Source: a virus. From it: a stretch of DNA of 34,075 bases. The DNA is taken from positions 1 through 34,075 of the IMG/VR virus record IMGVR_UViG_3300025128_006394. One strand, given 5' to 3'. Position numbers and translations under genes: made by a program. Under the pieces are notes generated by a model. That model did no database searches, was not told the origin of the DNA, and was given only the letters and a program-made list of their open reading frames with translations. Below are positions 1,652 to 30,091 of this stretch, in pieces; within the stretch, counting starts at the first letter, position 1; every line of letters starts with the position of its first letter.

Positions 1652-2665
1652 TTATTGTCCATAAATTAATTTTTTTATCGTCGGTAAATCACCAGAGTTT
1701 AGCAAGTCCAATAACTGAGATTCCCTAAACTTCTTACCATCACAGTTATACCAACCTGGGGAAGATACCTCTATGGCCTCGTCCTGAACCAAACTATGAA
1801 TAAGACCACACTCGGGTGTTAGCCCCTTATCGAAGTATAATTCAAACTCACATTCCTGGAACGGAGTAGAAACTTTATTCTTCTTATTCTTTATATCCCC
1901 CTTGATGCCTAGAGTCTTTTTGGTTTTCTCATCTACTATAAGAGTCTTTTTTGTTCTATTAGATAGACAATTCATATCTACTGAGAGGTAATACTCCAGA
2001 GATTTTCCTCCAGCAGCATTGGTGTCTGGGTTTGAGTGTGGCATAACTCCAATCTTGCTTCTTGTTTGGTTAATGACCATTAGAGCTACATTATCATCCT
2101 TTAGCCTTCTATAAATAAGGCGTAATTCATTTCCTAAGGCCTTCGCCCTCCAAGCTCCCAAAGTAGGACCAGCCGTATTAGCCCTCTCATCCTCCTTCTT
2201 CTTCTTTTCGTCTTCCCCTCTGAATTGAATCTCTGCATCAATAGGAAGGACAGGTAGACTATCCACTCCAACTACTATAGGAGTCTCTTTATCAACAGCC
2301 CTTATCTGCTCTATCTTCTTGTGTATATCATTGAAACACTTCTCTAATGTCTCTGGCCTGGAGTATATCAGCTTAGAGGGATCAATTCCTAATCCAGTAA
2401 CAAAAGACTTGTTTAGGGAGTCCTCAGCGTCCTGAAATATGGTGTAAAATCCTGCCTTCTGAGCCTGAGCTAGGGTACTTATGACAAAAACCGTCTTTGC
2501 GGTAGAAGATTCTCCTCTGAATTGTGTTATCCCTCCAACAGGAACCCCACCATCATACCTACCTGATATAACATGATTAAGAGCTAAGCTACCAGTAGAA
2601 ACAAAAGTTTCGTAATCCCTTTCATCAGAGAGACAACCTATGGATTTTAATAGATCACTATTCAT
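1652..2665 (-). CDS. recA: RecA/UvsX-type recombinase
   Basis: Homologous recombination ATPase that coats single-stranded DNA and drives strand exchange. The 337-aa length is close to RecA. Walker A is at residues 51-58 (GESSTAKT), Walker B around VVGVDSLPVL, and the L2-type region has INQTRSKIGVM followed by a Gly-Gly-rich loop, all in RecA order. The Walker A glycine before the lysine is replaced by alanine; T4 UvsX also departs from the textbook motif here, so activity is still plausible. GGAAGAG lies upstream of the ATG, and the start overlaps the glutamine synthetase stop by 8 nt. The partner proteins gp32-like SSB and gp46/47 are encoded elsewhere in the window. Confidence 0.93.
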   Translation of the reverse strand: MNSDLLKSIGCLSDERDYETFVSTGSLALNHVISGRYDGGVPVGGITQFRGESSTAKTVFVISTLAQAQKAGFYTIFQDAEDSLNKSFVTGLGIDPSKLIYSRPETLEKCFNDIHKKIEQIRAVDKETPIVVGVDSLPVLPIDAEIQFRGEDEKKKKEDERANTAGPTLGAWRAKALGNELRLIYRRLKDDNVALMVINQTRSKIGVMPHSNPDTNAAGGKSLEYYLSVDMNCLSNRTKKTLIVDEKTKKTLGIKGDIKNKKNKVSTPFQECEFELYFDKGLTPECGLIHSLVQDEAIEVSSPGWYNCDGKKFRESQLLDLLNSGDLPTIKKLIYGQ

Positions 2666-3632
2666 TACCTAACTCTTCCTTCTTGCAGTTTACCGTAGAA
2701 AGGATCTCATGAAACGCTGAGTATGGGTCCACGTTAGCTGCTGGCCTTCTGTCTTCAATATACACTCCATCATCGCCATCAGGAATTCTAATACTGGTAT
2801 TCCTGGATCCTACTCCTATACTAAACTCATCATAATCAGAGGTTTCGTGTTTCCCCGTCATTCTAAGTTCATTATGCTCACCATAAGCTTCCATATGTTC
2901 AAAGTGGAACTCTTCAAACCTCTCAGCAAGATTCATCAAGGAGTCTTCGCCGCTCCTTGTACCTCTTGTAGATATGTTAATGTGACATCCAGCACCATTG
3001 TAATCTTCAAAAGGTTTAGGGTGGAGAGTAACTGCTATGTTGTTGTAAGCAAAAACTCTACGGAGGAAATATCTGGAGACTACCAAATCATCAGCTACCC
3101 TGACTGGGTCATCTGGCCCTATCTGGTATTCCCATTGTCCGTATGTAACCTCTGAATTGAATCCAGCATACTTTATACCGTATACTAAACACAAATCCAT
3201 GTGAGTTCTAACTAAATTTTCAGCTAGATTTGTAGGAAAACAGTATGAATTCCCTTGCTTTGAAGAATTAAGGTGAGGGGAAAATGGACCTCCAGCAAAG
3301 TGAGAAATAGTAAATTCTTGCTCTACACCTACCCAGGTATCCTCCCTGTCTGTCTGAAAAGAATATTGCAAACTCTTTCTATTATTTGTGGGGTGTGGGT
3401 CACCATTAGAATCCAATACCTCACATAGAACTACAGGATATACATTATCCCCCGTATAGACCCTGACAGGGTTTAAAATACAATCGGACTTGTCTACAGT
3501 CGCTTGACCAGTACTTCCCCCATCAAACCTCCACTTAGGTATAGGTTTTCCGACAAATTCCTTGTCAAGTATCCTAGTCTTACCTCTAATCTCCCCCTCA
3601 GCATCTTGCCAAACATACTCTACAATATTCAT
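2658..3632 (-). CDS. Glutamine synthetase, type II (eukaryote-like GSII)
   Basis: Predicted to make glutamine from glutamate, ammonia and ATP. The 324-aa length and motifs are those of GSII, not bacterial GlnA-I: KWRFDGGSTGQA (33-44), WVGVEQEF (100-107), YGQWEYQIGP (164-173), NGAGCHINIST (212-222), MTGKHET (258-264), SIRIP (280-284) and EDRRPAANVDPY (293-304). Equivalents of the metal- and substrate-binding residues are present: E104, E106, E161, E168, H217, E263, R277, R282, E293 and R295, so the enzyme looks functional. Its ATGA overlap with the deaminase and 8-nt overlap with recA place it in a nucleotide and recombination operon. It may supply glutamine for nucleotide synthesis during infection, or it may act as a gamma-glutamyl ligase on another substrate; the sequence does not decide between these. 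Confidence 0.95.
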   Translation of the reverse strand: MNIVEYVWQDAEGEIRGKTRILDKEFVGKPIPKWRFDGGSTGQATVDKSDCILNPVRVYTGDNVYPVVLCEVLDSNGDPHPTNNRKSLQYSFQTDREDTWVGVEQEFTISHFAGGPFSPHLNSSKQGNSYCFPTNLAENLVRTHMDLCLVYGIKYAGFNSEVTYGQWEYQIGPDDPVRVADDLVVSRYFLRRVFAYNNIAVTLHPKPFEDYNGAGCHINISTRGTRSGEDSLMNLAERFEEFHFEHMEAYGEHNELRMTGKHETSDYDEFSIGVGSRNTSIRIPDGDDGVYIEDRRPAANVDPYSAFHEILSTVNCKKEELGNE

Positions 3633-3940
3633 GAATAAATAACCTTCTTTATCTTGTGCTCCTTTATTATAGCCTGACAGTCCTCACAAGGACACGCCAA
3701 ATTATTATTTCTTCTATAAATATACATGACGGATCCTTCCAGGTCGTATCCTCTGTTTAGAGCAGAGTAGATAGCCGAACCCTCTGCGTGAAGCATATTA
3801 AACTTACCACTGCCTAGTTTTGTGTGGGTCTTCCTAGTATTATAGCCTAATCCTAATACTCTCTTTTTCTTGGTTATTACTGCTCCTAACTTGAAAGACA
3901 TAGTGCTCTTTTCACTTTCTTTTCTAGCTAGGAGCATCAT
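3629..3940 (-). CDS. dCMP/cytidine deaminase-family zinc enzyme
   Basis: Zinc-dependent deaminase fold with HAE (51-53) and PCEDC (84-88), the standard metal and proton-shuttle motifs. In a phage, next to dUTPase, the likely reaction is dCMP to dUMP, feeding thymidylate synthesis by ThyX. At 103 aa it is shorter than T4 dCMP deaminase and lacks room for its regulatory insert. I chose the ATG at 3940, 4 nt after the dUTPase stop; a longer version from TTG at 4018 would overlap dUTPase by 74 nt and adds no conserved sequence. Its stop overlaps the glutamine synthetase start (ATGA). Confidence 0.85.
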   Translation of the reverse strand: MMLLARKESEKSTMSFKLGAVITKKKRVLGLGYNTRKTHTKLGSGKFNMLHAEGSAIYSALNRGYDLEGSVMYIYRRNNNLACPCEDCQAIIKEHKIKKVIYS

Positions 3941-3944
3941 CCGA

Positions 3945-4397
3945 TCAGGATCCAGTGCTTCCGAATCCTCCAACTCCTCTAACGGTATCAGACAAGTCAT
4001 CACATTCCTCAAATTCAAAGTCTTCTAATTTTCTAAATATTACCTGTGCGACTCTCTCTCCAGAGAATAACTTAAATTCCTCTCCTAAGGAGGTTAGCAT
4101 TACTGCCCACTCTCCTCTATAGTCGCTGTCTATTATACCAGTTCCGTTAGATAAAACAATACCTCTTTTTCCTAAAGATGATCTTATATAAATAGCAGCA
4201 TAATATCCTTCTGGTATTTCTGTAGAAAATCCTAAGGTAATTGTTGTAACTTCCCCTCTCCTAATACAGTAACTATCATAACCATCAGGATTATCATCTG
4301 CCCTGTATGGTAGGTATAAGTCAAATGCCGCTGAATATGGAGTTCCTTTGTTAGGGACTACAGAGTGTGGATGAATCCTCTTAAACTTTATTTTCAT
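3945..4397 (-). CDS. dut: dUTPase (trimeric type)
   Basis: Hydrolyses dUTP to dUMP and pyrophosphate, keeping uracil out of DNA and giving the ThyX substrate. All five trimeric-dUTPase motifs are visible in order: AAFDLY, RSSLGKRGI, GTGIIDSDYRGEW, GERVAQVIF and the C-terminal glycine-rich RGVGGFGSTGS. The 150-aa length is normal for the family. It fits a phage that carries a uracil-DNA-glycosylase-like domain on its polymerase. No good Shine-Dalgarno site precedes the ATG; it starts 2 nt after the preceding glycosyltransferase stop, so translation is probably coupled. Confidence 0.96.
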   Translation of the reverse strand: MKIKFKRIHPHSVVPNKGTPYSAAFDLYLPYRADDNPDGYDSYCIRRGEVTTITLGFSTEIPEGYYAAIYIRSSLGKRGIVLSNGTGIIDSDYRGEWAVMLTSLGEEFKLFSGERVAQVIFRKLEDFEFEECDDLSDTVRGVGGFGSTGS

Positions 4398-4399
4398 AG

Positions 4400-5413
4400 T
4401 TAATCTAGTTGATGCAAGAAATCTTTCTTTACTACCTCTGGGGTTAGCGAGGACATAAGTTCTGAATTTCTCCTGGATTCCCCCAGAAGCTCTTCATAAT
4501 ATTTTTCATGTTCCTGTAAACATTCTCCCAGGTTGTCTCCGTCCTTAACCTTAACGAAAGACTTAGGCATGTATAACATTTTTCTGTCTTCAACATCTGT
4601 CCAAAATAGTATTGATCCCGCAGCCATTATATCAAAAGTTCTCCAGGATATTCTATCATGTCCCGTAGGACACAAAGCTACCTTGTTCTGTATTATTGAC
4701 ATTAGATTTTGTTGATAGGAAATAGGATCATGAGCCCACTTCCTAACACCTTTTCCGAACAAATTAGACACAAAATCTTGGGAATAGCAATCATCCTCTT
4801 TAAACACTAGTCCACCCTCAAAATGTATCCCACTTTTCTCCATAGAAAGTAGCCAATCAACTCTTTGATTGTATCTTATATTACTACCACCGTCAGTGAT
4901 TTCCTCTTCAGGAAGAGTTACAACAGAATGAATATCCTGTTCTTCATCAAAGCTGTATGCACCCCCATCAACAATGGAGTCTGGGTTGGCCCAAGTAGGA
5001 ACTCCTATAAAAACAGGATCGAAAGAATAAGGAACGTTGGATAAATCACTTTTCGCAAAATTACGTAACCCTAAATAAGTTTGTATAGGAAAAGCTATAT
5101 TTTTTATGCCGTCTTTCCTATCATCCTCAACATATACCATTTTAGCATAAAACTCTACATGATCTTTCAAAGAGTAATATGCTTCTCCTGGGTCAAAATG
5201 TCTGGGGTCATCCTCGCAGTCAAAAAATATAATCTTGCTTCCCATGTCATGTGACACACTTCTTGGAAATGAAGGGTCCACAAAAACAATATCATAAGCT
5301 CCCTTAGGTATATTTTCATCCTGTATAACTACAGATTCAATACCACAGGATCTAAGCCCTTGAAAAAGTCTGTAGGTATGAAGATCATTTCCCCTAAGTA
5401 TCCCACATCTCAT
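4400..5413 (-). CDS. Probable glycosyltransferase (exostosin/CgeB-like C-terminal half)
   Basis: 337 aa. The C-terminal third has features of retaining or exostosin-like transferases: CPTGHDRISWRTFDIMAAG around 245-265, followed by a segment ending in a VKVKDGDNL stretch, resembling the R...E/D-x-x-A-x-G acceptor/donor region of GT-B enzymes. The N-terminus (GNDLHTYRLFQGLRSCG) resembles the first Rossmann half. Donor and acceptor cannot be read from the sequence. It follows Gmd after 1 nt and precedes dUTPase after 2 nt, forming the low-coordinate end of the glycan block. Confidence 0.65.
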   Translation of the reverse strand: MRCGILRGNDLHTYRLFQGLRSCGIESVVIQDENIPKGAYDIVFVDPSFPRSVSHDMGSKIIFFDCEDDPRHFDPGEAYYSLKDHVEFYAKMVYVEDDRKDGIKNIAFPIQTYLGLRNFAKSDLSNVPYSFDPVFIGVPTWANPDSIVDGGAYSFDEEQDIHSVVTLPEEEITDGGSNIRYNQRVDWLLSMEKSGIHFEGGLVFKEDDCYSQDFVSNLFGKGVRKWAHDPISYQQNLMSIIQNKVALCPTGHDRISWRTFDIMAAGSILFWTDVEDRKMLYMPKSFVKVKDGDNLGECLQEHEKYYEELLGESRRNSELMSSLTPEVVKKDFLHQLD

Positions 5414-5414
5414 T

Positions 5415-6404
5415 CTATAATGCGCCTCTGTACAGATAGCTGTCTATAATTCCCATCCAGTGGTCAACCATCTCCTCCACCATAGAGTCAAAGGTATATT
5501 CTGGCTTCCACTCTAGTTTTTCTCTTATCTCGGAGGAATCTCCCCTCAAGAAATCAAGCTCTTGAGGTCTAAAGTATTTGGGATCCACAGTAACGTAGTC
5601 TTTATAGTCAAGTCCTAAATACCCGAAGGTTTTCTCACACATCTGTCTGATGGTACGGCTTTCTCCTGTAGCTACTACCCAATCACTGGCTTCCTCATTA
5701 GTAACTATCTTGTGCATAGCATCAACATAATCTTTAGAATGTCCCCAGTCTCTTGAAGCATCTAGATTACCGAGAGCCAAAGAATCACGAAAACCCTTTC
5801 TAATCTCAACAGCACCCTTCACAATTTTGTTGGTAACAAAGTTAGAGCCTCTCCTAGGGGACTCATGATTGAACAATATACCATTACACGTATGCATGTC
5901 ATATGCAGCCCTGTAATGCCTAACCAGATTATACCCCATGACCTTAGCACATCCATAAGGAGACGTAGGTGTCATAGGTGTTGTCTTTCTTTGATATCCG
6001 TCCTTATCAACAGAGTTACCAAACATCTCAGAGGAGCTTGCCTGATAGAACTTAACCTTAGGAATAAGTAACCTACATGCCTCTAGCATGTTCAAAACGC
6101 CTAGTCCGTTAGTCTGTATAGTAAAAGATGGAACATCAAAACTTATTCTAACATGGCTTTGGGCACCTAAGTTATACACCTCATCTGGTTTTACCTCACT
6201 GATAATTCTATGTAAGGATTGGGTATCTAATAGATCTCCGTAATGAGTTGTTATATTAGTATCTTTTATTCTACTATCTTGATTTTCAGGAACAGAATTT
6301 CTTCTCAAAATTCCATGGACATCATACCCTTTTGATAGGAGTAACTCAGATAGGTAGCTCCCATCTTGTCCTGCTACGCCCGTAATAAGTGCTGTCTTGG
6401 TCAT
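5415..6404 (-). CDS. gmd: GDP-mannose 4,6-dehydratase
   Basis: Converts GDP-mannose to GDP-4-keto-6-deoxymannose, the precursor of GDP-fucose, GDP-rhamnose and GDP-perosamine. It is an extended short-chain dehydrogenase with NAD(P)-binding GVAGQDG (9-15), an SSSEMFG active-site segment (123-129) and the catalytic Y150/K154 pair in SPYGCAK; the RRGSNFVTNKI stretch is typical of Gmd. At 329 aa it is slightly shorter than bacterial Gmd (about 350-370). It has its own CTATAATA box 4 nt before the ATG, unlike its neighbours in the glycan block. Neighbouring DegT-type aminotransferase and fucosyltransferase-like genes fit a GDP-deoxyhexose pathway. Confidence 0.96.
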   Translation of the reverse strand: MTKTALITGVAGQDGSYLSELLLSKGYDVHGILRRNSVPENQDSRIKDTNITTHYGDLLDTQSLHRIISEVKPDEVYNLGAQSHVRISFDVPSFTIQTNGLGVLNMLEACRLLIPKVKFYQASSSEMFGNSVDKDGYQRKTTPMTPTSPYGCAKVMGYNLVRHYRAAYDMHTCNGILFNHESPRRGSNFVTNKIVKGAVEIRKGFRDSLALGNLDASRDWGHSKDYVDAMHKIVTNEEASDWVVATGESRTIRQMCEKTFGYLGLDYKDYVTVDPKYFRPQELDFLRGDSSEIREKLEWKPEYTFDSMVEEMVDHWMGIIDSYLYRGAL

Positions 6405-6408
6405 GCCT

Positions 6409-6416
6409 TATTATAG
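6409..6416 (-). promoter_or_regulatory. CTATAATA box, 4 nt before the gmd ATG
   Basis: Exact CTATAATA on the minus strand, overlapping the TAA stop of the upstream aminotransferase gene, then AGGC and the ATG at 6404. An AAGG in the gap is too close to the ATG to be a standard ribosome binding site. It is one of five identical boxes placed directly before start codons. Confidence 0.5.
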
Positions 6417-7022
6417 GCTACCATATTGAGAAGTTTTAAATACTTCCATATTTCTTAGGTCAGGCCAGTCCGTATAGTGCCATTTTTTAGGGGTATTTTT
6501 TATGGCCTCAGGTAGCTTATCCAAACCTAACTGAGCGGTCTCTGGAGTCATGTAATAATGATATCCCATGGTGTCTATGTTTTGCTCCCTCCAGGGTTTA
6601 TCTGGTAACCTGCCGTCGTAAGACATCTTTTTAAGGGCTGTAGCTGCTAACTGACCATCTGTAAGTATCATTCCCCCTCGTCCAAGGCTCAAGTGCTTTT
6701 GATATTGAAAGCTAAGGCACATAAAAGAACCAGGAACAAATCCCCCCTCCTTCCAATACACAGCAGCATCAATTATATTAGTATTTCCTATGAGATAATA
6801 ATCTTCCCATGGAGTATCGTCCCAGTCCCAATTGATCCCTAATTTACCTCCTAAGAAAGGAACAGAGATATAGGTCCTGGTAGGGAACTTAACGTTATTA
6901 GGCCCTGTAAGACGAAGACAAAGCTCTATAGCATGGGTACAGCAATCAACCGCAACCGCATACTTAGATCCATAAAACTTAGCTATACTATCTTCAAATT
7001 GTTTAACAGTATCAAAATTCAT
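6411..7022 (-). CDS. Short DegT/DnrJ/EryC1-type PLP aminotransferase
   Basis: Sugar aminotransferase fold, likely to act on a keto-sugar nucleotide. The PLP lysine is K109 in SFQYQKHLSLGRGG, the cofactor aspartate is D85 in NIIDAAVYW, and GYHYYMTPETAQLG (153-166) matches the family's GYNYR-type segment. At 203 aa it lacks most of the C-terminal domain of the usual 360-400 aa enzymes and also has a shortened middle, yet the frame is intact. Next to gmd, the obvious parallel is GDP-perosamine synthase; this is inference. Its stop is directly followed by gmd; its start overlaps the methyltransferase stop (ATGA). Confidence 0.8.
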   Translation of the reverse strand: MNFDTVKQFEDSIAKFYGSKYAVAVDCCTHAIELCLRLTGPNNVKFPTRTYISVPFLGGKLGINWDWDDTPWEDYYLIGNTNIIDAAVYWKEGGFVPGSFMCLSFQYQKHLSLGRGGMILTDGQLAATALKKMSYDGRLPDKPWREQNIDTMGYHYYMTPETAQLGLDKLPEAIKNTPKKWHYTDWPDLRNMEVFKTSQYGSL

Positions 7023-7546
7023 TTAGTGGCCTCAAGATTAAGGCTTATTAAAGTACCGTTATCTTTATCTATGTGAGGTATGTAAGCCTGAGAGTGATCA
7101 TCAAATTCAGAGTGCTCCGTCTCTCTCCAATCGTATCCTACAACATCTTTAAAACCCACCAAAGTTAAAAGTTTAGATAGTGATGTGAAAGTATATATTG
7201 TTTTATGGTAGATAGGAGGATCACCCATCTTACCATACAGAGGACCTAAAAAAGAATCTAGATTATGACCGTTTCTATACAGATCACATATGGCTGTGAA
7301 GTCTGGAACCGCCAACCTAAGAATTCCCCCAGGCTTAAGAACCCTCTTCCATTCTTCTAGAACTGTAAAGGCCTCATCCCTATCAAAATACTCCAAAAGG
7401 TGAGAAGCATATACAACATCACAGGAACCATCTTTAAATGGTATATCCATTACATCGTTGAAATCAACGTGAGGAAAATCCTCAGAGTCTATATGAATCC
7501 ACCCAGAACCAAAGTCTCTCTTTCCACACCCTAAATGTAATTTCAT
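7019..7546 (-). CDS. Class I SAM-dependent methyltransferase
   Basis: 175 aa with a Rossmann methyltransferase layout: motif I LHLGCGKRD at the N-terminus, acidic IDSEDF after strand 2, CDVVYASHLLEY (motif II) and LKPGGILRLAVPDF (motif III), as in Methyltransf_11-type enzymes. The substrate is unknown; in a glycan block it is probably a sugar or sugar nucleotide. It overlaps both the cupin gene upstream and the aminotransferase gene downstream by ATGA, so these three are one translational unit. Confidence 0.88.
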   Translation of the reverse strand: MKLHLGCGKRDFGSGWIHIDSEDFPHVDFNDVMDIPFKDGSCDVVYASHLLEYFDRDEAFTVLEEWKRVLKPGGILRLAVPDFTAICDLYRNGHNLDSFLGPLYGKMGDPPIYHKTIYTFTSLSKLLTLVGFKDVVGYDWRETEHSEFDDHSQAYIPHIDKDNGTLISLNLEATK

Positions 7547-7956
7547 ATAAACACCTTGTCATTCTCTTGCCCTGTATAGGGGCCAGTTTTGTATTCGTAT
7601 ACCACAGTGTCATCTTCCAAAATTTCGTAATTATGACCACCCTCAAGAGTGAAAGAGCAGTCTCCAGTGTATAGGATGTGAGACTCCAAATACTCACCGT
7701 CGGTATCATAGAATATAGCATTAACGCTACCCTTAATCACCACCCAACTCTCTTGAGCAATCACTTTATCATAACTAGGAGATTTCCAAATATGACGGTG
7801 GGGGCGAAAAGTCGTGCCTTTTTCCATCCTTAAATAGGCACACTGGATAAAGTTATTAGGGTCTACTAACTCAGTTCTTTGTTCTTTAAAATCTCCTGCT
7901 ACATAAACTATATGTAATAGTTTTTCAGGATCTACTTTTGAATATAGTTTTTCCAT
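7543..7956 (-). CDS. Cupin-fold protein (WbuC/sugar-cupin-like)
   Basis: 137 aa. A single beta-barrel cupin is suggested by FRPHRHIW (metal histidines), WVVIKGSVNAIFYD, LYTGDCSF and GGHNYEILEDDTVVYEYKTGPY. Such small cupins are common in O-antigen and capsule loci, where some are sugar-nucleotide isomerases and others have no known reaction. It begins 1 nt after the stop of the GT2/CMP-sugar synthetase fusion and overlaps the methyltransferase start. A reaction cannot be assigned from sequence alone. Confidence 0.75.
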   Translation of the reverse strand: MEKLYSKVDPEKLLHIVYVAGDFKEQRTELVDPNNFIQCAYLRMEKGTTFRPHRHIWKSPSYDKVIAQESWVVIKGSVNAIFYDTDGEYLESHILYTGDCSFTLEGGHNYEILEDDTVVYEYKTGPYTGQENDKVFI

Positions 7957-7957
7957 A

Positions 7958-9193
7958 TTACTTAAGTTTTTCTCTTACTAATTCTAAATCACTTTCGTAA
8001 TGAATATCAGTAGCTGTGTCCTTTACACAGCCTATTCTTTTACTTGTATGTCCAGCCAACAAATGAGTATATTTAATTATTCTAACACTACCATTCCTTT
8101 CAGAATCTGGTGTAACTGTAATTAAATCATCATAATAGTTCCTAACCATATACTCTAAACAGTGTGATAAAGAATTACTTTTGTCTGGGTGGTCTGGCTG
8201 TAAACCAACGACATAATCATATTTAGCTTTAATATTATTTACTATATCGATATAAACATCTACAACTTCGGTATCACCACATAAAAACTTATCTCTTATC
8301 ATACCCCTAACATCATTTTTAATGGCAATTTCCATTACATCGTTATCTTCTGTTGAAACAATTATATCATCAACATAAGGACACTCTTTGGCATAATCAA
8401 TAGCATGTTCAACTAAAGATTTCCCATTTATCTCCCTCAAGTTTTTTTTATGTAATCTAGTAGAATCACCTTTAGCAGGTATTATCACCAAGACTTTTAA
8501 ATCCTTCATTTTATTTTCTCCCACCATGACAGTTTTTGTGTTTTTAACTATGTCTTTTAGTGAAGACCATTCAGCTTCGTACCTTTTTATTGTTTCACTA
8601 TTACCCTCATCATGATAGTGGTACACTTCAGCTTCAGGTTCATAGACAATAATATAATTCATTGCTTGGACTTCATTTGACCATTTTATATCTTCCCAAG
8701 CTTTTATTTCTTCATCGAAGTCTACATACTTCCATATATCTTTTCTGATCATACTTGATGCATTATTGAAAAAAGAATCTTTTTGTTGATAAAGTTTTTC
8801 ATCTCTAAAAATTATACTTAAATTTCTCTTATCAAGAACATTAGCATCTTCAGTTGGTAATTGTTTAGAATAAACACCAGCTATTCTATTATGATTAAAA
8901 TTATCAACCATAGTTTTTAAATAAGTTGTCTTTGTAGGAAAACAATGGGCACTAAGATTACAAATGTAATTAAATTTAGCCTTTTTAATTCCTATATTTA
9001 ATGCTTTTCCATATGTAAATGGAATACATTTTTCTACTATACAACCGTATTCATTAGCAACCTCAATTGTATCATCTGTACTCCCAGAATCAACAACAAT
9101 GACTTCGTGTTCTGTAGTTTGATTTGATAGTATCCCCAGTAGCTTTCTTAAATTTTTACCTTCATTTAAGGTTCTTATTACAATACTTATCAT
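7958..9193 (-). CDS. GT2 glycosyltransferase fused to CMP-sugar (ulosonate) synthetase
   Basis: 411 aa with two complete parts. Residues 1-228 are a family-2 transferase: [23 protein letters not shown] and a later WEDIKWSNE acidic segment. Residues 229-411 match NeuA/KdsB-like cytidylyltransferases: [37 protein letters not shown] and VVGLQPDHP. Such enzymes activate 3-deoxy-ulosonic acids with CTP. The junction has a Met (ATG at 8509) with a GGGAGA site 7 nt upstream, so a free 183-aa synthetase could also be made. It overlaps the DAHP-synthase-like gene by ATGA, pairing ulosonate synthesis with activation. Much of the gene is very AT-rich (11/60 to 18/60 G+C in lines at 8761-8940), suggesting a separate origin. 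Confidence 0.88.
8517..8522 (-). promoter_or_regulatory. Internal Shine-Dalgarno site GGGAGA before in-frame ATG 8509
   Basis: GGGAGA ends 7 nt before an in-frame ATG that falls exactly at the start of the CMP-sugar synthetase domain. This spacing and position would allow internal initiation and a separate synthetase polypeptide in addition to the fusion. Confidence 0.45.
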
Positions 9194-10032
9194 TTATATA
9201 TCTCTTTTAAAGTTTCAAAATCTATAGCTTGATTCGGATCACTTATGGATTCATCTGGTATTGGATGAGTTTCTATTATCAAACCATGTGCGCCAGCAGC
9301 CAAAGCAGCTTTAGCTATAGGAGGTACAAAATTTCTATAGCCACATGCATGGCTAGGGTCATAAATAACTGGTATATTAGTTAACTCCTTAAGAGCAGGT
9401 ATAACCATTAAATCTGGAGCCCATATATTATCAAATAGATGTCTAGTTGAAGGGGCACCTCCAACTCCTCGGGGGCAAATAGCTATTCTCTGATTACCAC
9501 CAACCATGATCCTTTCACAAGCACCGAGTATATCTTCAATTTGACCATATAAGCCTCTCTTTAATAAAACAGGTTTATCAATATGTCCTAAAGCATCTAG
9601 CAAGTCATAATTCTGAGCATTCCTTGCTCCTACTTGTATAATATCAACTATATCAAGTGTTTCATCTGTTAATTGACTCGTATGCATTATTTCTGTGACA
9701 ATGGGTAAACCAGTTTCTTTTTTAGCTAAATCTAGTAATTTCAAACCTTCTAGTCTTAATCCCTCTTTCCAACTATAAGTTCCTACGGATTTAGAATCTG
9801 TTACTGGATAAGTACACGGTTTATATGCACCGCCTCTTAGTGCATTAGCACCAAGATCTTTCACGTTTTTTGCTATATCTACTATATTAAATCTATCACC
9901 TGGACCTCCCTCGACCGAACAAGGTCCTGCTATTCTAGTCCAAGGCCAATCAACAGTTAGATCCGCATCTACTGAATGTTTTAACTGTCCTTCTTTAACT
10001 AAATTCTCTATAAATTTGGGTAGTTTTCTCAT
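9190..10032 (-). CDS. DAHP-synthase-like 3-deoxy-ulosonate aldolase
   Basis: 280-aa (beta/alpha)8 enzyme of the type I-beta DAHP synthase group, which condenses phosphoenolpyruvate with a phosphorylated aldose. Visible: GPCSVE (36-41), LRGGA (65-69), QVGARN (133-138), LLKRG (156-160), DPSHACG (225-231) and IETH (253-256). The metal ligands C38, H228, E254 and D265 are present. The phosphate-binding KPRT motif is KPCT (71-74), followed by about nine extra residues, so the aldose substrate may not be erythrose 4-phosphate. No other shikimate gene is present; the next gene is a CMP-sugar synthetase, so a surface-sugar role fits better than aromatic amino acids. GGAGA lies 7 nt before the ATG. 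Confidence 0.85.
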
Positions 10033-10054
10033 TTTATTTCTCCATTTTATTTTT

Positions 10055-10777
10055 TTACAAGTCTAATACTTCTGCGCCAGCCTCAGCTATTATACTGTTT
10101 GCTTCTATAGTACAGGGGGTAATATTATATGTATTTTTTAGATGATGAAAAATATCTTTGAACTGATTAAGAGTTTTATAATATTCGTTAAAGTACGAGG
10201 GTGTACCAAAATCATCAATATCTTCCTGAATGAATGTATCTCCTCTAAAGGTTTCTCTAAGACTTTCTAGTTGATGTTTAATCGTTTCCTTAAATGGTTC
10301 AAAAGAATAAAAGTGATTTGTACTCTTATGGTCAAATCCCACATACACTACTCTACTCGCACCAAGTATCATGGCAATATGAGTAGCTGCAAACCCTATC
10401 TGTTCCGCTCCGACTAAATTAGAATTTTCATTGATGTCTTTAATCATTTCAGACATATTATGTGTTACAACATTTCTATTCGTAGTTTGTATTACATTCA
10501 TAGTTTTTTTCAAAGAGTTATCTAGGGTAGGTTCACCTTGAAATATTCTCACCTTACTATTGCCAAAATAATGATTAAGCAATAACTGAACATAATGACC
10601 AGTCATAAAGTAGTCAGTATCTTCAAATACTAAGTGACTAGCATTACAACCTATGGAGATACCATTATTAATAGTATCGATTTCATTTTGAGTCAAATCT
10701 TTTAACCTAGTACCATTACCTAAAATAAATATAGTTTCTCCACTATGTATATTTTTTAAATCTTCTATTGTTAGCAT
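10055..10777 (-). CDS. GT42/DUF115-like putative sialyl- or ulosonyltransferase
   Basis: 240 aa. The N-terminal [15 protein letters not shown] and SIGCNASH, the central [23 protein letters not shown] and the C-terminal YNITPC...NSIIAE segment follow the order seen in GT42 (CST-type) sialyltransferases and in DUF115/Maf proteins linked to nonulosonic acids. I infer transfer of a CMP-activated ulosonic sugar, because the next two genes make and activate such a sugar. The start is the ATG at 10777, with GGGAGGGG 6 nt upstream; a GTG at 10801 is less likely. The ATG overlaps the previous gene's TAA by one base. AT-rich like its downstream neighbour. Confidence 0.6.
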
Positions 10778-12270
10778 TATTTCCCCTCCCAACACTCCCA
10801 CACGAAAGGATAAGAAAATTTCATCTTGTGAGTTTTCGACAACTTATCAAGAATCTTGTTCCTACGATACACAGGGAATCTACCATAATAATGAAACTGT
10901 ATTAGGAATTTATCTACCTTAGTGTGCAACCCAGAATCTAGCAACTCTTCAAGTATATCAAACTCTGACCCTTCAACATTTAATTTCATAACGTCTATAT
11001 TGTCTACGTCTAACTCCTCAAAAACTTCTGCTATACCACGAACCTTGCAGTCTTCTCTTTTTCCTCCCTCAAGCATAAAAGAAGACTCATCCTCAGAAAC
11101 TGATATGCTGAAAGTTCCGTTCTCTTTTCCTAGTCCAAAATTGAAAAACTTTATCTTATCATTTTCGTTAGATAAAGACCTATCGTAAAGATCCTTAACA
11201 GGTTCAAATCCGTAACAAGTGCATCTATACTTATCGTAAATTTCCGTAGAGTATTCTCCTGTATAAGAACCAAGATCCCATATAACAGAATCTTCAGTTA
11301 ACTCTGGAAAATAAGAAAGTTGGGAATCTCCCCCTCTAGAGAAAAATTCGCTAAGGTGCCTATACTGAGTATGTCCATCTACATAGGTCAAGATGTCTGT
11401 TACATCTAAATCATCCGTTATATTTTGATCAATCAAACTATTTTCAAGAAGAACATTTTCAAATATCCAGTCTTCCTGAGTATCATACTTGCTGACCAGC
11501 TTCTGATTTTCTTCTGCATACATGAACATACTGTCATATAGCTCAGGTGTCAAAGTATTTAATATCTCCTCAAGTTCCTCAATAGTATCGAAAGTTAGTA
11601 TTCCTTTACTATTGAAAAAGTTACCTATCTCCGTAGCTCCATAATAAATAGGTATCACCCCCAAAGCCATAGCGTCTAGAAGCTTCTCACTAAAGTAATA
11701 TGGGTTCTTAGTATTTTCTATTACTACAGTAAACCTGTAAGGAGATAGAGCCTCTTCCTTAGTTTCAAAAGGTCTTCCTGCCCCTGCTCCCCACAAATCT
11801 ATTCCCTTCAAGGATGAAGCTATCTTGTGTCTAAGGCTATGACCAAAAGCTTCTCTCTTAGTAGAGTAAATCATGGAAACCATTTCTGTCTTTTCTGGAA
11901 ATCCATAATTTTCCTTCTCTACCCAGCACCCTCCGAAAGGATAAAACTTAGTTTTTTCTGGATACTTCTCTAGAAGTTCCTTATCGTAAGTGAGCAAAAA
12001 ATCGTAGTTATCAATGTAATTATCTACGCTGTTATAGATAGAGGGGTTTGTCTCTCTGGTCTCTACCAACATACCAATATTTGTGCCCTTGCAATTGGTT
12101 ACAGAGTCTGTATCTAAATAAGAATCCGTAAATAAACTGATGCCTTCCCAACCTTCCTTAACTCTAACATACCTAGTGTAAGAAGGTTTTTTATTATCAG
12201 TCATGGAGTAAATTCCATCCTCTGTTTCCAGATGACTGAACGAATCATCAAATAAATTAATTTCTATCAT
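10777..12270 (-). CDS. GT10 fucosyltransferase-like / FkbM methyltransferase fusion
   Basis: 497 aa with two domains. Residues about 1-280 resemble alpha-1,3-fucosyltransferases: FTVVIENTKNPYYFSEKLL (about 180-198) followed by MALGVIPIYYGA is the GT10 donor-site signature. Residues about 300-497 are an FkbM-type methyltransferase: VIWDLGSYTGEYS, a YGFEPV segment and DVMKLNVEGSEFDILEELL. The polypeptide could both add a deoxyhexose and O-methylate a glycan. I use the ATG at 12270, which overlaps the upstream stop as ATGA; a TTG at 12282 would only add four residues. The GDP-fucose it might need could derive from gmd plus host enzymes. Confidence 0.85.
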   Translation of the reverse strand: MIEINLFDDSFSHLETEDGIYSMTDNKKPSYTRYVRVKEGWEGISLFTDSYLDTDSVTNCKGTNIGMLVETRETNPSIYNSVDNYIDNYDFLLTYDKELLEKYPEKTKFYPFGGCWVEKENYGFPEKTEMVSMIYSTKREAFGHSLRHKIASSLKGIDLWGAGAGRPFETKEEALSPYRFTVVIENTKNPYYFSEKLLDAMALGVIPIYYGATEIGNFFNSKGILTFDTIEELEEILNTLTPELYDSMFMYAEENQKLVSKYDTQEDWIFENVLLENSLIDQNITDDLDVTDILTYVDGHTQYRHLSEFFSRGGDSQLSYFPELTEDSVIWDLGSYTGEYSTEIYDKYRCTCYGFEPVKDLYDRSLSNENDKIKFFNFGLGKENGTFSISVSEDESSFMLEGGKREDCKVRGIAEVFEELDVDNIDVMKLNVEGSEFDILEELLDSGLHTKVDKFLIQFHYYGRFPVYRRNKILDKLSKTHKMKFSYPFVWECWEGK

Positions 12271-13058
12271 ATCTTTATCCAAGAATCTGGAATGATGTCT
12301 TTGCTGTCAAACTCTGATCCAGGTCCGAACCAATTCTTTGGGGCTATTACCACCTTATCCTTATACTTGTTTAGCCAAGCGCCCCACCAACTGAAGGTAG
12401 AATTAGCTATGATATTGTTTTTACACATAGACATCAATAGCATATCAGTAATATCAGATTCCCCCTCTACGTAGAAAGAGTTGGGGACACTAAAATTGTT
12501 TTTGCACCATTCTATATCATCACTAAACACTAGAACAGAATCTACACCAGAAAATTTATCCAGAGCTTTATAATAGTAATCTTCGGTCGGTAATGAATAT
12601 ATATTACTCAAAGAAATGTAATCTCCTCTCCTAACATGCAGTGATAAAGTCTTACCAACCAATATATCGGCATACTTATCCCAAACATTAGAAACCATGG
12701 AATCAGGAAATTTTAAACTGTCTAAAATGTATTCCCTATTGTGGGAAAAATACTTCTCTGATTGAAAATACCCATTGTAACAACAACCTTTTATATAAGG
12801 TAATTCTGTATATGAGAACTCTGGTTCCTCGTAAATATAAATTGTTAAAGCGTCATCGGGATAATATGAATTAACCTCTCTAAATATATTATCATGGTAA
12901 CCTCCAAAATCTGGATTGGATATCTTAGGGAATATGGCAATGTCATCGTTATCTTTAGCTAAACTTAGTAGAGTAGCTACTTGAAACATTTGATTTCCTA
13001 ATCCAAAGTTAGGACAGTTCCCTATATTACTAGGTCCTACCAAATCACAGGTTATCAT
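12267..13058 (-). CDS. GT11 alpha-1,2-fucosyltransferase-like protein
   Basis: 263 aa with the GT11 hallmarks in order: GLGNQMFQVAT (19-29), the GDP-fucose-binding HVRRGDY (141-147), VFSDDIEWCK (177-186) and NSTFSWWGAWLN (219-230). These enzymes transfer fucose or a related GDP-deoxyhexose in alpha-1,2 linkage. The length is near the family's usual 280-300 aa. ATGA overlaps join it to the GT25 gene upstream and the GT10-FkbM gene downstream. With gmd 6 kb further along the same block, it points to a GDP-6-deoxyhexose-containing glycan. Confidence 0.92.
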   Translation of the reverse strand: MITCDLVGPSNIGNCPNFGLGNQMFQVATLLSLAKDNDDIAIFPKISNPDFGGYHDNIFREVNSYYPDDALTIYIYEEPEFSYTELPYIKGCCYNGYFQSEKYFSHNREYILDSLKFPDSMVSNVWDKYADILVGKTLSLHVRRGDYISLSNIYSLPTEDYYYKALDKFSGVDSVLVFSDDIEWCKNNFSVPNSFYVEGESDITDMLLMSMCKNNIIANSTFSWWGAWLNKYKDKVVIAPKNWFGPGSEFDSKDIIPDSWIKI

Positions 13059-26377: not shown

Positions 26378-26561
26378 ATTTATTCTTAATATCTCTAAGT
26401 TTTCTTGCCGAATTTAAATCATTCTTATGAGATCCAGTAAAGGTCATAATAGGAACAGAACCCTTATCGATAATATCCTCAGCATAAAAACCTAGATACT
26501 CAATAAGCTCTAACAGAAATCTTACATCACTTGAACAGGTCGTTTTCTTTTTCTTAGACAT
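26364..26561 (-). CDS. Hypothetical protein, 65 aa
   Basis: A small basic-start protein with a lysine-rich N-terminus, a hydrophobic stretch near 15-27 (FLLELIEYLGFYAE) and a basic tail. I do not recognise it. It overlaps the polymerase C-terminal ORF by 8 nt and thyX by 14 nt, a typical operon arrangement that supports its being translated. Confidence 0.6.
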   Translation of the reverse strand: MSKKKKTTCSSDVRFLLELIEYLGFYAEDIIDKGSVPIMTFTGSHKNDLNSARKLRDIKNKYGKQ

Positions 26562-27699
26562 TAATGCTATCTAGATATTGAGTAACTTCATCTCTATTAG
26601 TTATTACACCATTTTCTAAAAAAGCCTCAATGCCATCACCAAAACTTGAGCCTACCAACATCTCTATAGAAAGAGGAACATCAAGCTTTATACCAAACCT
26701 ATTCGTCATAATAGGATTCTGGACCATATAATAGTCTATGATCTTTAAAGCCTCGTCTAATTCCTCTAACTCAACCAAAAATTCCCCAGAGTCATGCACA
26801 GTCTGACATATTCTAGACTTCATTCCCCTATGCCTGAACTCTCTACCTATACCCAATAAAGAACATAATAATATGTCTGAAGCAACACTTTGAATAGTAA
26901 AGTTCAACCCTTGCCTAAGTGCTTTCTTGGCTACCTTAGGATTTCTTGAATCTACATTCTGTAAATGTCTGCGTCTTCCGAAAAGGGAGTAAGCATACTT
27001 ATTATCTCTAATATTTTCATAGATAAAATCCATATACGGTTGGATACTATCGTAAACTTCAAACCAAGAATCCATTACAGCCCTGGCTTGCTCAACGGTC
27101 TTTCCTATGTTAGGGGCTAGAGTTGCTTCTGTTCCCCCATATACAATAAGGAAGGAGGTTGCTTTTGCTTCTTGTCTTTCTAATCTACTAAGATCTTTCC
27201 TACTCTTTCCATGAATTAGTTCTGCTGTATACCAGTGCAAATCATCATTCTCAATGAATGCCTTCTGCATCTTTTTCTCTTTTGCCACATGAGACAATAC
27301 ACGTAACTCCATAGCAGAATAATCAACAGTAACAAAAGCGTAGCCAGGAGGGGCTACTACCATTGACCTTATGTTGTATTCTCCCTCTTCCCTGGGCAGG
27401 GTGTGGAAAGATACCCCCTTAGGCTTCTTGTTACCAGCGGAATATTTTGAACAGGACAATCTTCCAGTAACTGTACCATCAAAATTGTAAGTGCAGTAAA
27501 TCTTATTTTCACCGTTGTATTCTACGGATCTTTCCATGCCTCCTATGTAAGTAGACTCTAATTTCTTAGTCTTTCTAAACTCAAGAAGATCCATTATAAA
27601 CTTCTGAGCCTCTTTCAAATCAGAAGTTGATTTACCGTGGATTACGCTGGAGCTAACCTGCTCGTCCTCTTTTCTCTGTCTCCAATTTCTTCTAGACAT
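26554..27699 (-). CDS. DNA polymerase family A, C-terminal part (palm and fingers)
   Basis: 381 aa carrying the catalytic core: FRKTKKLESTY, TGRLSCS, motif A VDYSAMELRV (D126, E131), motif B RQEAKATSFLIVYG (R175, K179, F183), QSVASDI and motif C TVHDSG (H302-D303). Motif C has Ser in place of the usual Glu after HD. The 762-type position is Phe, a residue associated with virulent phages in surveys of viral PolA. The ATG overlaps the TAG of the middle piece by 8 nt, and the pieces are offset by one base, so this is a separate ORF or needs +1 frameshifting. The N-terminal 20 residues replace the expected linker of a single-chain enzyme. Confidence 0.93.
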   Translation of the reverse strand: MSRRNWRQRKEDEQVSSSVIHGKSTSDLKEAQKFIMDLLEFRKTKKLESTYIGGMERSVEYNGENKIYCTYNFDGTVTGRLSCSKYSAGNKKPKGVSFHTLPREEGEYNIRSMVVAPPGYAFVTVDYSAMELRVLSHVAKEKKMQKAFIENDDLHWYTAELIHGKSRKDLSRLERQEAKATSFLIVYGGTEATLAPNIGKTVEQARAVMDSWFEVYDSIQPYMDFIYENIRDNKYAYSLFGRRRHLQNVDSRNPKVAKKALRQGLNFTIQSVASDILLCSLLGIGREFRHRGMKSRICQTVHDSGEFLVELEELDEALKIIDYYMVQNPIMTNRFGIKLDVPLSIEMLVGSSFGDGIEAFLENGVITNRDEVTQYLDSINV

Positions 27700-28177
27700 C
27701 TGGCCTCGTCAATAATTCAAACTCTATTTGCTCTAGTAATTGTTCCAAAGCGTCCTTAGCCACTTTGGGGGCCTCATTATCCGTGAACTGAGGAGGGAAC
27801 AGTCCAAACCCTTTGTCATCTAGAAATAATATTTTCCCTATATCATCATTTGATGTTAAGCTATATTTAGTATTAACTTTATCAGACTCATACATGCTGT
27901 CTTCTTTCCTGATATTATTGTTTCTTATAGCTCTACCAATGCGAGTAACTGCATCAAGGTCTACGCAATTCCCATCAAATTCCATCTCTAGGAATTCGTC
28001 TGAGACTGGGCAAAGAAGATCTTTGTATAAGTTCCACCTATCATCTCCCCTGAGAATTTCCTCAAACTTATTAAACAGCTTTAAAGTAAAGTAGGAGTCC
28101 CAACAATTTCCCTCTATACAATCAGGCAGAGAGATGCTTGCCCAATCAAAGGTCTTAGGATTGTCTATAGTAAGCAT
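27692..28177 (-). CDS. DNA polymerase family A, middle part (exonuclease end and thumb)
   Basis: 161 aa matching the stretch of PolA between the exonuclease Exo II motif and the palm: FDWASISLPDCIEGNCWDSYFTLKLF corresponds in position to the Exo III region in PolA (D in NCWD), EMEFDGNCVDLDAV to the thumb start, and TDNEAPKVAKDALEQLLEQ to the pre-palm helix. The Exo III tyrosine position is Gly. It cannot be a polymerase alone. It begins 7 nt after the stop of the glycosyltransferase gene, with no Shine-Dalgarno site, and an in-frame stop lies two codons upstream. The stop overlaps the palm ORF start by 8 nt. Confidence 0.85.
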   Translation of the reverse strand: MLTIDNPKTFDWASISLPDCIEGNCWDSYFTLKLFNKFEEILRGDDRWNLYKDLLCPVSDEFLEMEFDGNCVDLDAVTRIGRAIRNNNIRKEDSMYESDKVNTKYSLTSNDDIGKILFLDDKGFGLFPPQFTDNEAPKVAKDALEQLLEQIEFELLTRPDV

Positions 28178-28184
28178 GTATTAT

Positions 28185-29048
28185 CTAAGTATTAGGTTTG
28201 GTCCAAACAACTTTATCATCACCAACATTTCCCTCACCAACTTTCCTTAGATTATACTTATGAAGGTTACCGATTACTTCCTTAGCCTCCGTCAAATCTT
28301 TCTCAAAAGAGCTAGTAATGTCCTCCTCCGATTGAGTCCAATGATCACATAGGCCTTGTTCAGCAGTCCACTCTGATCTCCTGGAGAGAAGCTGCTTCCT
28401 CCTCCTCACTTTATAGTCTACGGACAGGTCTTTATAGTGTAGAAGTTTAATATCATCCTTCTCACTCTCTTTCATTAAGTCTTCTCTAGCATAAAGACCG
28501 TGGGCACCATAACACAGCTTACTTCCATATCCAACCCTAGGATCAAATATAAGCCTCTTGTCCATTCCCTCACACCTCATTCCAGTCCTAACTTTATCTA
28601 CCAGAAGTTCTCCGTCATGTTCAGGAAAATCCTCGGAAATCATTTCAAACCCCATAACTGTGGGGTAATTAATACCAGAGAGCATATAGCCCTCCAAAAG
28701 TCCCCTCATGTTTGGATGGTAATAGAATTCGTCGCAGTCTGCTATTATAACCCAATCGGCACCCTTTCCATACTTCTTAAAGCAGTTTTCCTTAACGAAA
28801 TTAAGCATTCTTTCGTCGTAAACAGGAGCTATACCACTCACACTTTTTTCTTCCTCTGACAGTAAGGAGGGATCTACGCACCATTGCTCTACTTGAACTT
28901 TATTATACTGGGACGCTATTTCTAAAGACTTATCATCTGATGCATTGTCTAGTAACACAATTCTATCACAAAATTGTGAGTAGTGATCTAACGTAAAAGG
29001 AAGAATTTCCTCCTCATTCCAACATACAATATAAGCTTCTATATTCAT
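28185..29048 (-). CDS. GT2/GT92-like glycosyltransferase inside the polymerase gene set
   Basis: 287 aa. YIVCWNEEEILPFTLDHY, IVLLDNASDDKS and WVIIADCDEFYYHPN (acidic metal motif) show a GT-A transferase of the Glyco_tranf_2_4/GT92 kind; LLHYKDLS and the basic RRRKQLLSRR segment lie near the C-terminus. Its ATG overlaps the stop of the UDG-exonuclease ORF (TAATG) and its stop precedes the polymerase middle ORF by 7 nt. It interrupts the polymerase between Exo II and Exo III. It is isolated from the main glycan block 11 kb away, so a role with DNA or virion is possible but unproven. Confidence 0.85.
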   Translation of the reverse strand: MNIEAYIVCWNEEEILPFTLDHYSQFCDRIVLLDNASDDKSLEIASQYNKVQVEQWCVDPSLLSEEEKSVSGIAPVYDERMLNFVKENCFKKYGKGADWVIIADCDEFYYHPNMRGLLEGYMLSGINYPTVMGFEMISEDFPEHDGELLVDKVRTGMRCEGMDKRLIFDPRVGYGSKLCYGAHGLYAREDLMKESEKDDIKLLHYKDLSVDYKVRRRKQLLSRRSEWTAEQGLCDHWTQSEEDITSSFEKDLTEAKEVIGNLHKYNLRKVGEGNVGDDKVVWTKPNT

Positions 29049-30091
29049 TATAAATCCTGTAACTCATCAGCAAAATACTCGGTTACCAAACTTTTAAGGC
29101 CGTTTGGAGCGTCCTCCCGTATAAGTTTAGCCAACAATTTAGTATCCCAAGTGGTACCCTCAGCGCACCTTATATTATACCTCAAGAGAAATTTTCTATC
29201 AAAAGTATGATTTTGAAATATTTTTTTATTATTTTTATTGCCTAAGACCTCAGAAATAAACTCCAGAACTTTTTTCCTATCGTATTCAGAAAACGGAGTG
29301 AATCTGTGATCAATAGGTAAACAGACATTTCCATCAGAAAAAGAAAATGCGATAGTTTGGATGAGATCCTTTTTAAAATCGAGTCCTGTTGTTTCAATGT
29401 CAATTCCTATTGGTTCCTCTGTTGTTTTAAGAAAGCCATAATTTTCAAGTTGCTTAATATCATGAATACCCTCATAAGAGAACTTACTCTTATCTACTAT
29501 ACCAAGTATATACTTATTATACCCGTTCCTAATGTCAAGTTCAAACAAATATCGCATTCTAGGTTCTTGAACAACTGCAAAAGGATGATATAGTGCTACC
29601 ACCCTACAAACATGTCCCTTCTCCGTCTTATACTCGTAGGAAGTCCCTCTTTTGTCTCCGATACCTGATTTTTTCGTTAGCATTTTTAGGGCTAAATTAC
29701 CACAGGCAAATATTAACTTTGGCTTAAGCTTATCAACCATAGGATCCAGATAATTTCTACAAGAATTCATAGACACTGGATTCATGTCCGATTCAAGCAT
29801 ATTAGGACACTTTACAGAAGCTGCGAAATCTATACGAAGGCCATCTCTAATATGGTCATACATGGGATGTAAGCAATCAACTATAAGATCTCTTTCTTCC
29901 GTCCTAAAAGCCTTGCTGTCCCCATAATTCCACTTAACACTATCAGAAAGGAAGAGTATATCCAATTCCTCCATGGACTCATAGTCTTTTATACAATGCC
30001 TTGGCTTATTCTTTTTTAGAACTGGGCACCCAACGCAGTGTGATTCTGAAGCCTCAACTGGGCCAGAGAATAAATCTTCTAAATCGCTCAT
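29048..30091 (-). CDS. Uracil-DNA-glycosylase-like domain fused to PolA 3'-5' exonuclease N-part
   Basis: 347 aa. Residues 1-200 resemble the family 4 UDG/SPO1-polymerase N-domain: C19-x2-C22 and C95-x15-C111 match the [4Fe-4S] cysteine spacing of that family; IFACGNLALKML and ALYHPFAV follow. The catalytic GEAPG-type motif is replaced by SDSVKW, so glycosylase activity is doubtful. Residues 225-347 are the exonuclease start: GIDIETTGLDF (D231, E233), NHTFDRKFLL (Exo II, D298) and TWDTKLLAKLI. The chain stops before Exo III, which is in the ORF at 27692-28177. The three pieces may assemble into a proofreading polymerase with an Fe-S uracil-recognition domain. A divergent CTATAATA box lies just before its ATG on the other strand. 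Confidence 0.85.
   Translation of the reverse strand: MSDLEDLFSGPVEASESHCVGCPVLKKNKPRHCIKDYESMEELDILFLSDSVKWNYGDSKAFRTEERDLIVDCLHPMYDHIRDGLRIDFAASVKCPNMLESDMNPVSMNSCRNYLDPMVDKLKPKLIFACGNLALKMLTKKSGIGDKRGTSYEYKTEKGHVCRVVALYHPFAVVQEPRMRYLFELDIRNGYNKYILGIVDKSKFSYEGIHDIKQLENYGFLKTTEEPIGIDIETTGLDFKKDLIQTIAFSFSDGNVCLPIDHRFTPFSEYDRKKVLEFISEVLGNKNNKKIFQNHTFDRKFLLRYNIRCAEGTTWDTKLLAKLIREDAPNGLKSLVTEYFADELQDL

Follow-up and report, generated by a model that had tools for sequence, protein, structure and literature searches.

Three adjacent genes of an uncultured virus very probably form a CMP-ulosonate module in a phage glycan island, with an aldolase of DAHP-synthase fold doing the job of NeuB. The genes lie in a 34,075-base record, IMGVR_UViG_3300025128_006394 (positions 1 to 34,075; the window, meaning the whole stretch analysed), which also encodes a phage replication set comprising RecA-like, DnaB-like helicase, family A polymerase, ribonucleotide reductase, ThyX and gp32-like proteins. 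Specifically, the enzyme encoded at 9190-10032 is predicted to make a 3-deoxy-2-ulosonic acid by condensing PEP with an aldose. The synthetase domain of the 7958-9193 product would couple this acid to CMP, and a transferase, for which the best candidates are the DUF115/GT42-like protein and the fused GT2, would attach the ulosonate to a glycan next to fucose-type sugars. The aldolase would be off DAHP-synthase duty and would fill the role that a NeuB-family enzyme has in matching viral cassettes. The features of the cassette are as follows.

9190-10032, minus strand: DAHP-synthase-fold aldolase of the KPCTYP clade, putative 3-deoxy-2-ulosonate synthase (280 aa; from PF00793, structure model, clade and residues)
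9805-9822, minus strand: KPCTYP codons (aldolase residues 71-76), altered acceptor motif, KPRTS in DAHP synthase
7958-9193, minus strand: GT2 and cytidylyltransferase fusion (411 aa)
7958-8509, minus strand: CMP-sugar synthetase domain of the fusion (residues 229-411; PF02348)
8549-9193, minus strand: GT2 glycosyltransferase domain of the fusion (PF00535)
10055-10777, minus strand: DUF115/GT42-like ORF, candidate transferase (240-248 aa; frame open to a GTG at 10801; weak profile matches)

As the earlier note had described, the three genes are adjacent and nearly gapless. The aldolase stop codon and the fusion ATG share a 4-base overlap (ATGA at 9190-9193), and 22 bases lie between the end of the DUF115/GT42-like ORF and the start of the aldolase. 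Pfam matches to DAHP_synth_1 (156 bits), Glycos_transf_2 (71 bits) and CTP_transf_3 (64 bits) are all above cut-off. The aldolase and the fused synthetase are adjacent again in another virus, at 76-77% identity. Because of this side-by-side recurrence and the strong purifying selection on the aldolase clade (dN 0.03-0.16 versus dS 0.66-1.7; dN/dS about 0.05-0.1), the arrangement is not due to chance. No NeuB-like or dehydrogenase ORF was found in the window, and no shikimate enzyme was recognised among the window ORFs scanned.

The sequence evidence assigns the aldolase a fold and a set of catalytic residues shared with DAHP synthases. Its PF00793 score of 156 bits far exceeds the cut-off of 25.5, its best alignment partners are type I-beta DAHP synthases (1vs1 at the top, E 1e-51), and its predicted structure (pLDDT 85) matches 1vs1 with a Z-score of 30.7, with DAHP synthases at about 30 and Kdo8P synthases at about 25. 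Comparison of the 16 clade members with 79 cellular DAHP synthases indicates that metal ligands C38, H228, E254 and D265 and PEP-side residues R66, K71, R137, K158 and R188 are kept. They align with C102, H272, E298 and D309 and with R126, K131, R186, K207 and R237 of the T. maritima enzyme, respectively, positions that we take to have these metal-binding and PEP-side roles. The aldolase and type I-beta DAHP synthases (AroF/AroA(Q) type; 1vs1, 1zco, 1rzm) have in common the fold, the metal ligands and the PEP-side residues, but they differ at the acceptor side. KPRTS is replaced by KPCT[Y/F]P in 16/16 clade members; the third residue is Cys in all of them, whereas it is Arg in 78 of the 79 cellular enzymes and Cys in one. 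ERGIRT is replaced by LRGVVG in the clade, except in the window and L106, which have PRGVGG, and clade aldolases carry an insertion following the acceptor motif. None of the curated DAHPS or KdsA cut-offs is reached by the aldolase, which scores 222.7 bits against the type I-beta DAHPS equivalog TIGR01361 (cut-off 267.75) and 90.5 bits against the KdsA model TIGR01362 (cut-off 314). The KANR[S/T] motif of KdsA is absent, with KPCTYP standing at the position of KANRT.

The aldolase clade has 16 members (support 100/99), namely the window, 14 uncultured viral contigs and one 3.3-kb MAG contig. The 14 viral records were retrieved by pattern and profile scans, at 52-76% identity; viral scans with single proteins as queries (the fusion or the DUF115-like ORF) gave no matches. 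The 3.3-kb contig, from a Nitrosopelagicus MAG, is the sole cellular one among the matches listed. Its GT2 closely resembles a GT2 of L106, and we take the contig for viral DNA that ended up in the MAG bin. Searches with the clade profile found this one MAG only in 151 genomes of its phylum and no member in 395 Bacteroidota genomes, a cellular survey that, together with the matches listed, is partial and cannot show absence. A search of 50,697 phage records, which may leave out very near records, found no clade member. Isolate-phage matches to the aldolase are restricted to 11 unannotated records at 33-42% identity, all outside the clade and probably host DNA in phage assemblies; matches to viral NeuB are weak, and the fusion, the DUF115-like ORF and the free synthetase have none in isolate phages. 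Photosystem D1/D2 family genes, a clue to cyanophages, are absent from every clade record. The family thus far appears to be almost only viral. Two further viral DAHP-synthase-like groups (L122-L143) have FRAGTYPG and IYGTYPPENSG in place of KPRT; they form one supported clade of 22, without a CMP synthetase.

The gene neighbourhood defines the partner of the aldolase. A CMP synthetase of one subfamily adjoins the aldolase or lies one gene away in 15/15 other clade loci, a count that is non-independent in that the loci come from related viruses. In contrast, such a synthetase is present in 0/79 cellular DAHPS loci, and 27 other viral loci yielded one weak match (21 bits). A D-2-hydroxyacid dehydrogenase is present in 14/15 other clade loci, missing only from the 3.3-kb contig, and a GT2 is usually present. 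Loci usually run dehydrogenase, synthetase, aldolase, GT2, but in the window and L106 the aldolase is followed by a GT2-synthetase fusion (synthetase domain 72% identical between the two, GT2 domain 82%). The lack in the window of the dehydrogenase that most cassettes carry counts against the CMP-ulosonate module.

These data bear on whether the aldolase could simply be a DAHP synthase that the phage carries to raise aromatic synthesis in its host, with coincidental neighbours. DAHP synthases are indeed nearest to it both in fold and in sequence. Nevertheless, we consider this very improbable, as the aldolase is under all DAHPS cut-offs, KPRT is lost in all members, the partner is a CMP synthetase rather than shikimate genes (15/15 versus 0/79), no shikimate enzyme is apparent in the scanned window ORFs, and aldolase and NeuB exclude each other (below). 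The shikimate auxiliary-metabolism reading was rejected on motif, cut-offs and gene context. Homologues in shikimate operons, which the earlier note had named as evidence to the contrary, were not encountered for the KPCTYP clade, with none of the 79 controls sharing the synthetase link.

It is also very unlikely that the aldolase is a divergent Kdo-8-phosphate synthase that supplies LPS-like sugars of the phage. KdsA does share its fold (Z about 25), superfamily and PEP chemistry, and the KdsA product is normally CMP-activated; the linked synthetases score best with KdsB/PseF-type models, and the auxiliary genes of marine viruses have been reported to include KdsA and KdsB (PMC10653327). However, the aldolase is without the KANR motif and far under the KdsA cut-off, and a true KdsA above the curated cut-off is present besides the clade aldolase in L107 and L109, with KdsB above cut-off in L107. 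The separate KdsA implies that the clade aldolase is not a Kdo synthase and is a second, separate ulosonate route in these two viruses; the Kdo reading was rejected on this coexistence, and the proposal in the earlier note that the product is not Kdo holds. In L109, a 173-kb virus, KdsA, a second cytidylyltransferase, an ORF that we read as transaldolase-like and the KPCT cassette lie within 6 kb (L109:2047-7810). L115 has a second sugar block (7871-11162), situated before a GT29-like ORF. It comprises an ORF resembling aminotransferases, a PseF-like cytidylyltransferase that ends in a cupin-like tail, and an ORF that looks SIS/GmhA-like by eye.

The synthetase is a short member of CTP_transf_3, the family of KdsB, NeuA and PseF. 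Like them it passes PF02348 (64.4 versus the gathering score of 22.6) and starts with IPAKxDSxRLxxKN. It differs from them in its length of about 185 aa, in scoring under all subfamily cut-offs (window domain at best 54.7 against named subfamilies such as KdsB and PseF, cut-off 193; the linked synthetases under every curated one), and in its fusion to GT2 (window, L106) or to NeuB (L185, L190, L196). Related cytidylyltransferases have a C-terminal metal-binding DxD; the corresponding motif in the alignment is DIH or NIH. The short length, the low subfamily scores and this C-terminal motif count against the CMP-ulosonate module.

A scan with the synthetase, using a query alignment built from aldolase-linked members only, identified 54 viral loci, which divide into 14 with the aldolase, 39 with a NeuB-family gene, none with both and one truncated contig. 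Thus, aldolase and NeuB are mutually exclusive beside the synthetase. The sequence-based synthetase tree indicates at least four partner changes (bootstrap range 4-4; 0% of bootstrap trees with one). These changes may be swaps of the synthase or of the synthetase; whichever partner was swapped, aldolase and NeuB are both served by a single synthetase subfamily. Aldolase and NeuB cassettes carry the dehydrogenase and GT2 at equal frequency. Enzymes of the NeuB family (sialic, legionaminic and pseudaminic acid synthases) hold the slot of the aldolase in a cassette that otherwise consists of dehydrogenase, CMP synthetase and GT2. Yet the aldolase gives no NeuB profile match: neither PF03102 nor the viral NeuB profile matches in the window, and Pfam finds no NeuB in the aldolase, in agreement with the earlier note that no NeuB-like gene is present. 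NANAS shares <10% identity with DAHP and Kdo8P synthases (PMC6795526). The aldolase most likely works like NeuB without being a NeuB, and its product would equal or resemble the NeuB product.

The altered motif suggests the nature of the acceptor. In DAHPS and KdsA, the Arg that the clade has lost binds the aldose phosphate; its loss suggests an unphosphorylated aldose as acceptor. The reading in which the aldolase has kept an aldose phosphate as substrate is somewhat doubtful, although it retains appreciable weight. Its product would then be unlike the one made by NeuB cassettes, and a phosphatase of the host would remove the phosphate ahead of CMP activation. All fold relatives found are synthases acting on aldose phosphates, and other loop residues could bind the phosphate. 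Moreover, GT29-like ORFs (7/14 aldolase versus 2/29 NeuB loci) and an ORF family without Pfam match (L106:5174-6241 and relatives; 4/14 aldolase versus 23/29 NeuB cassettes) hint at different sugars, with uncorrected p of about 0.002-0.003 and neither contrast surviving correction for about 30 comparisons. Against it, the phosphate-binding Arg is Cys in all clade members, no phosphatase is recurrent among the clustered neighbours of the clade loci, one synthetase subfamily serves both partners, and NeuB, the slot partner, acts on ManNAc (PMC6795526).

The substrate of Neisseria NeuB is ManNAc, whose N-acetyl group is positioned by Arg314 in the SAF-type domain of the enzyme (PMC6795526). Among the viral NeuBs scanned, four measure about 270 aa and have no SAF domain, so these SAF-less NeuBs and the aldolase may use an aldose without N-acetyl. 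By comparison, both of the two synthetase-NeuB fusions scanned (of L185, L190 and L196) have SAF. The earlier note was too sure in regarding the product as probably not plain sialic acid; it may be sialic-acid-like, since NeuB takes the place of the aldolase beside the same synthetase subfamily. A C7 sugar, such as the heptulosonate-like one of the earlier note, is a guess. More tentatively still, and with some doubt, we propose that this viral DAHP-fold lineage is an ulosonate synthase acting on an unphosphorylated aldose, that it has been exchanged with NeuB several times, and that it makes an undescribed CMP sugar (e.g. a C7/C8 ulosonate) for phage-directed surface glycans.

The CMP-ulosonate module lies in an island that is near-syntenic in L202, where NeuB is located between the DUF115-like ORF and the synthetase, at the slot of the window aldolase. 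Eight island genes are common to both: GMD, DegT, methyltransferase, cupin-like, DUF115-like, GT10, FkbM and GT11. The window members that flank the cassette are as follows.

5415-6404, minus strand: GDP-mannose 4,6-dehydratase-like (PF16363, 392 bits; TIGR01472, 388.5, just under the cut-off of 415; 68% to L202)
6411-7022, minus strand: short DegT-like aminotransferase ORF (PF01041, 61 bits; 38% to L202)
7019-7546, minus strand: methyltransferase (PF08241; 56% to L202)
7543-7956, minus strand: small ORF, cupin-like in our reading, without Pfam match (55% identical to L202 ORF)
10777-12282, minus strand: GT10 fucosyltransferase-like and FkbM methyltransferase fusion (PF00852, PF05050; both halves matched in L202)
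12267-13058, minus strand: GT11 glycosyltransferase (PF01531, 103 bits; 41% to L202)

The free L202 synthetase is 82% identical to the window synthetase domain, and its start aligns with the linker of the window fusion, so the fusion looks as if a GT2 had merged with a synthetase gene that used to stand alone. The DegT-like ORFs, 203 aa in the window (6411-7022) and 241 aa in L202 (6625-7350) against a profile of 360, are possibly reduced or non-catalytic. The NeuB of L202 is part of a 792-aa fusion (3558-5936) of a flavin oxidoreductase (amine oxidase/UDP-galactopyranose mutase-like) with a full NeuB and SAF.

The earlier note had the three genes synthesise, activate and transfer an ulosonic acid. 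Synthesis and activation are well supported (15/15 versus 0/79); transfer is the weaker part, with the DUF115/GT42-like ORF a candidate transferase from weak similarity and position. It scores 18 bits against PF01973 (MptE-like; cut-off 34.6) and E 6e-4 against PHROG 4603 'alpha-2;3-sialyltransferase', and its single-sequence structure model has a pLDDT of only 34.7. Its homologue in L202 (29% over 185 aa, E 7e-20) adjoins NeuB. GT29 (sialyltransferase-family) ORFs are present in 8 clade loci. The plant RG-II Kdo/Dha pathway offers a precedent, in that its CMP-Kdo transferase is likely to be a GT29 protein; Dha is a C7 3-deoxy-ulosaric acid whose plant genes and activated form are unidentified (PMC12168206). 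The target in the virus would be a host or virion glycan.

In uncultured viruses, two remotely related PEP-condensing families appear to replace each other next to a single CMP-sugar synthetase subfamily, which would take viral surface-glycan tools beyond Kdo and sialic acid genes. The cassette may provide a short pathway to a CMP sugar that could be new, and it advises caution in labelling such genes 'DAHP synthase' auxiliary metabolism. A literature search, with subscription journals mostly outside its scope, found no account of it.

Elsewhere in the window, the family A DNA polymerase is apparently split into an ORF with UDG and 3'-5' exonuclease (29048-30091) and polymerase ORFs (27692-28177 and 26554-27699), with a GT2 glycosyltransferase gene (28185-29048) separating the exonuclease ORF from the polymerase ORFs. 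A glutamine-synthetase-like ORF (2658-3632; PF00120, 60 bits, partial match) lies amid DNA metabolism genes.
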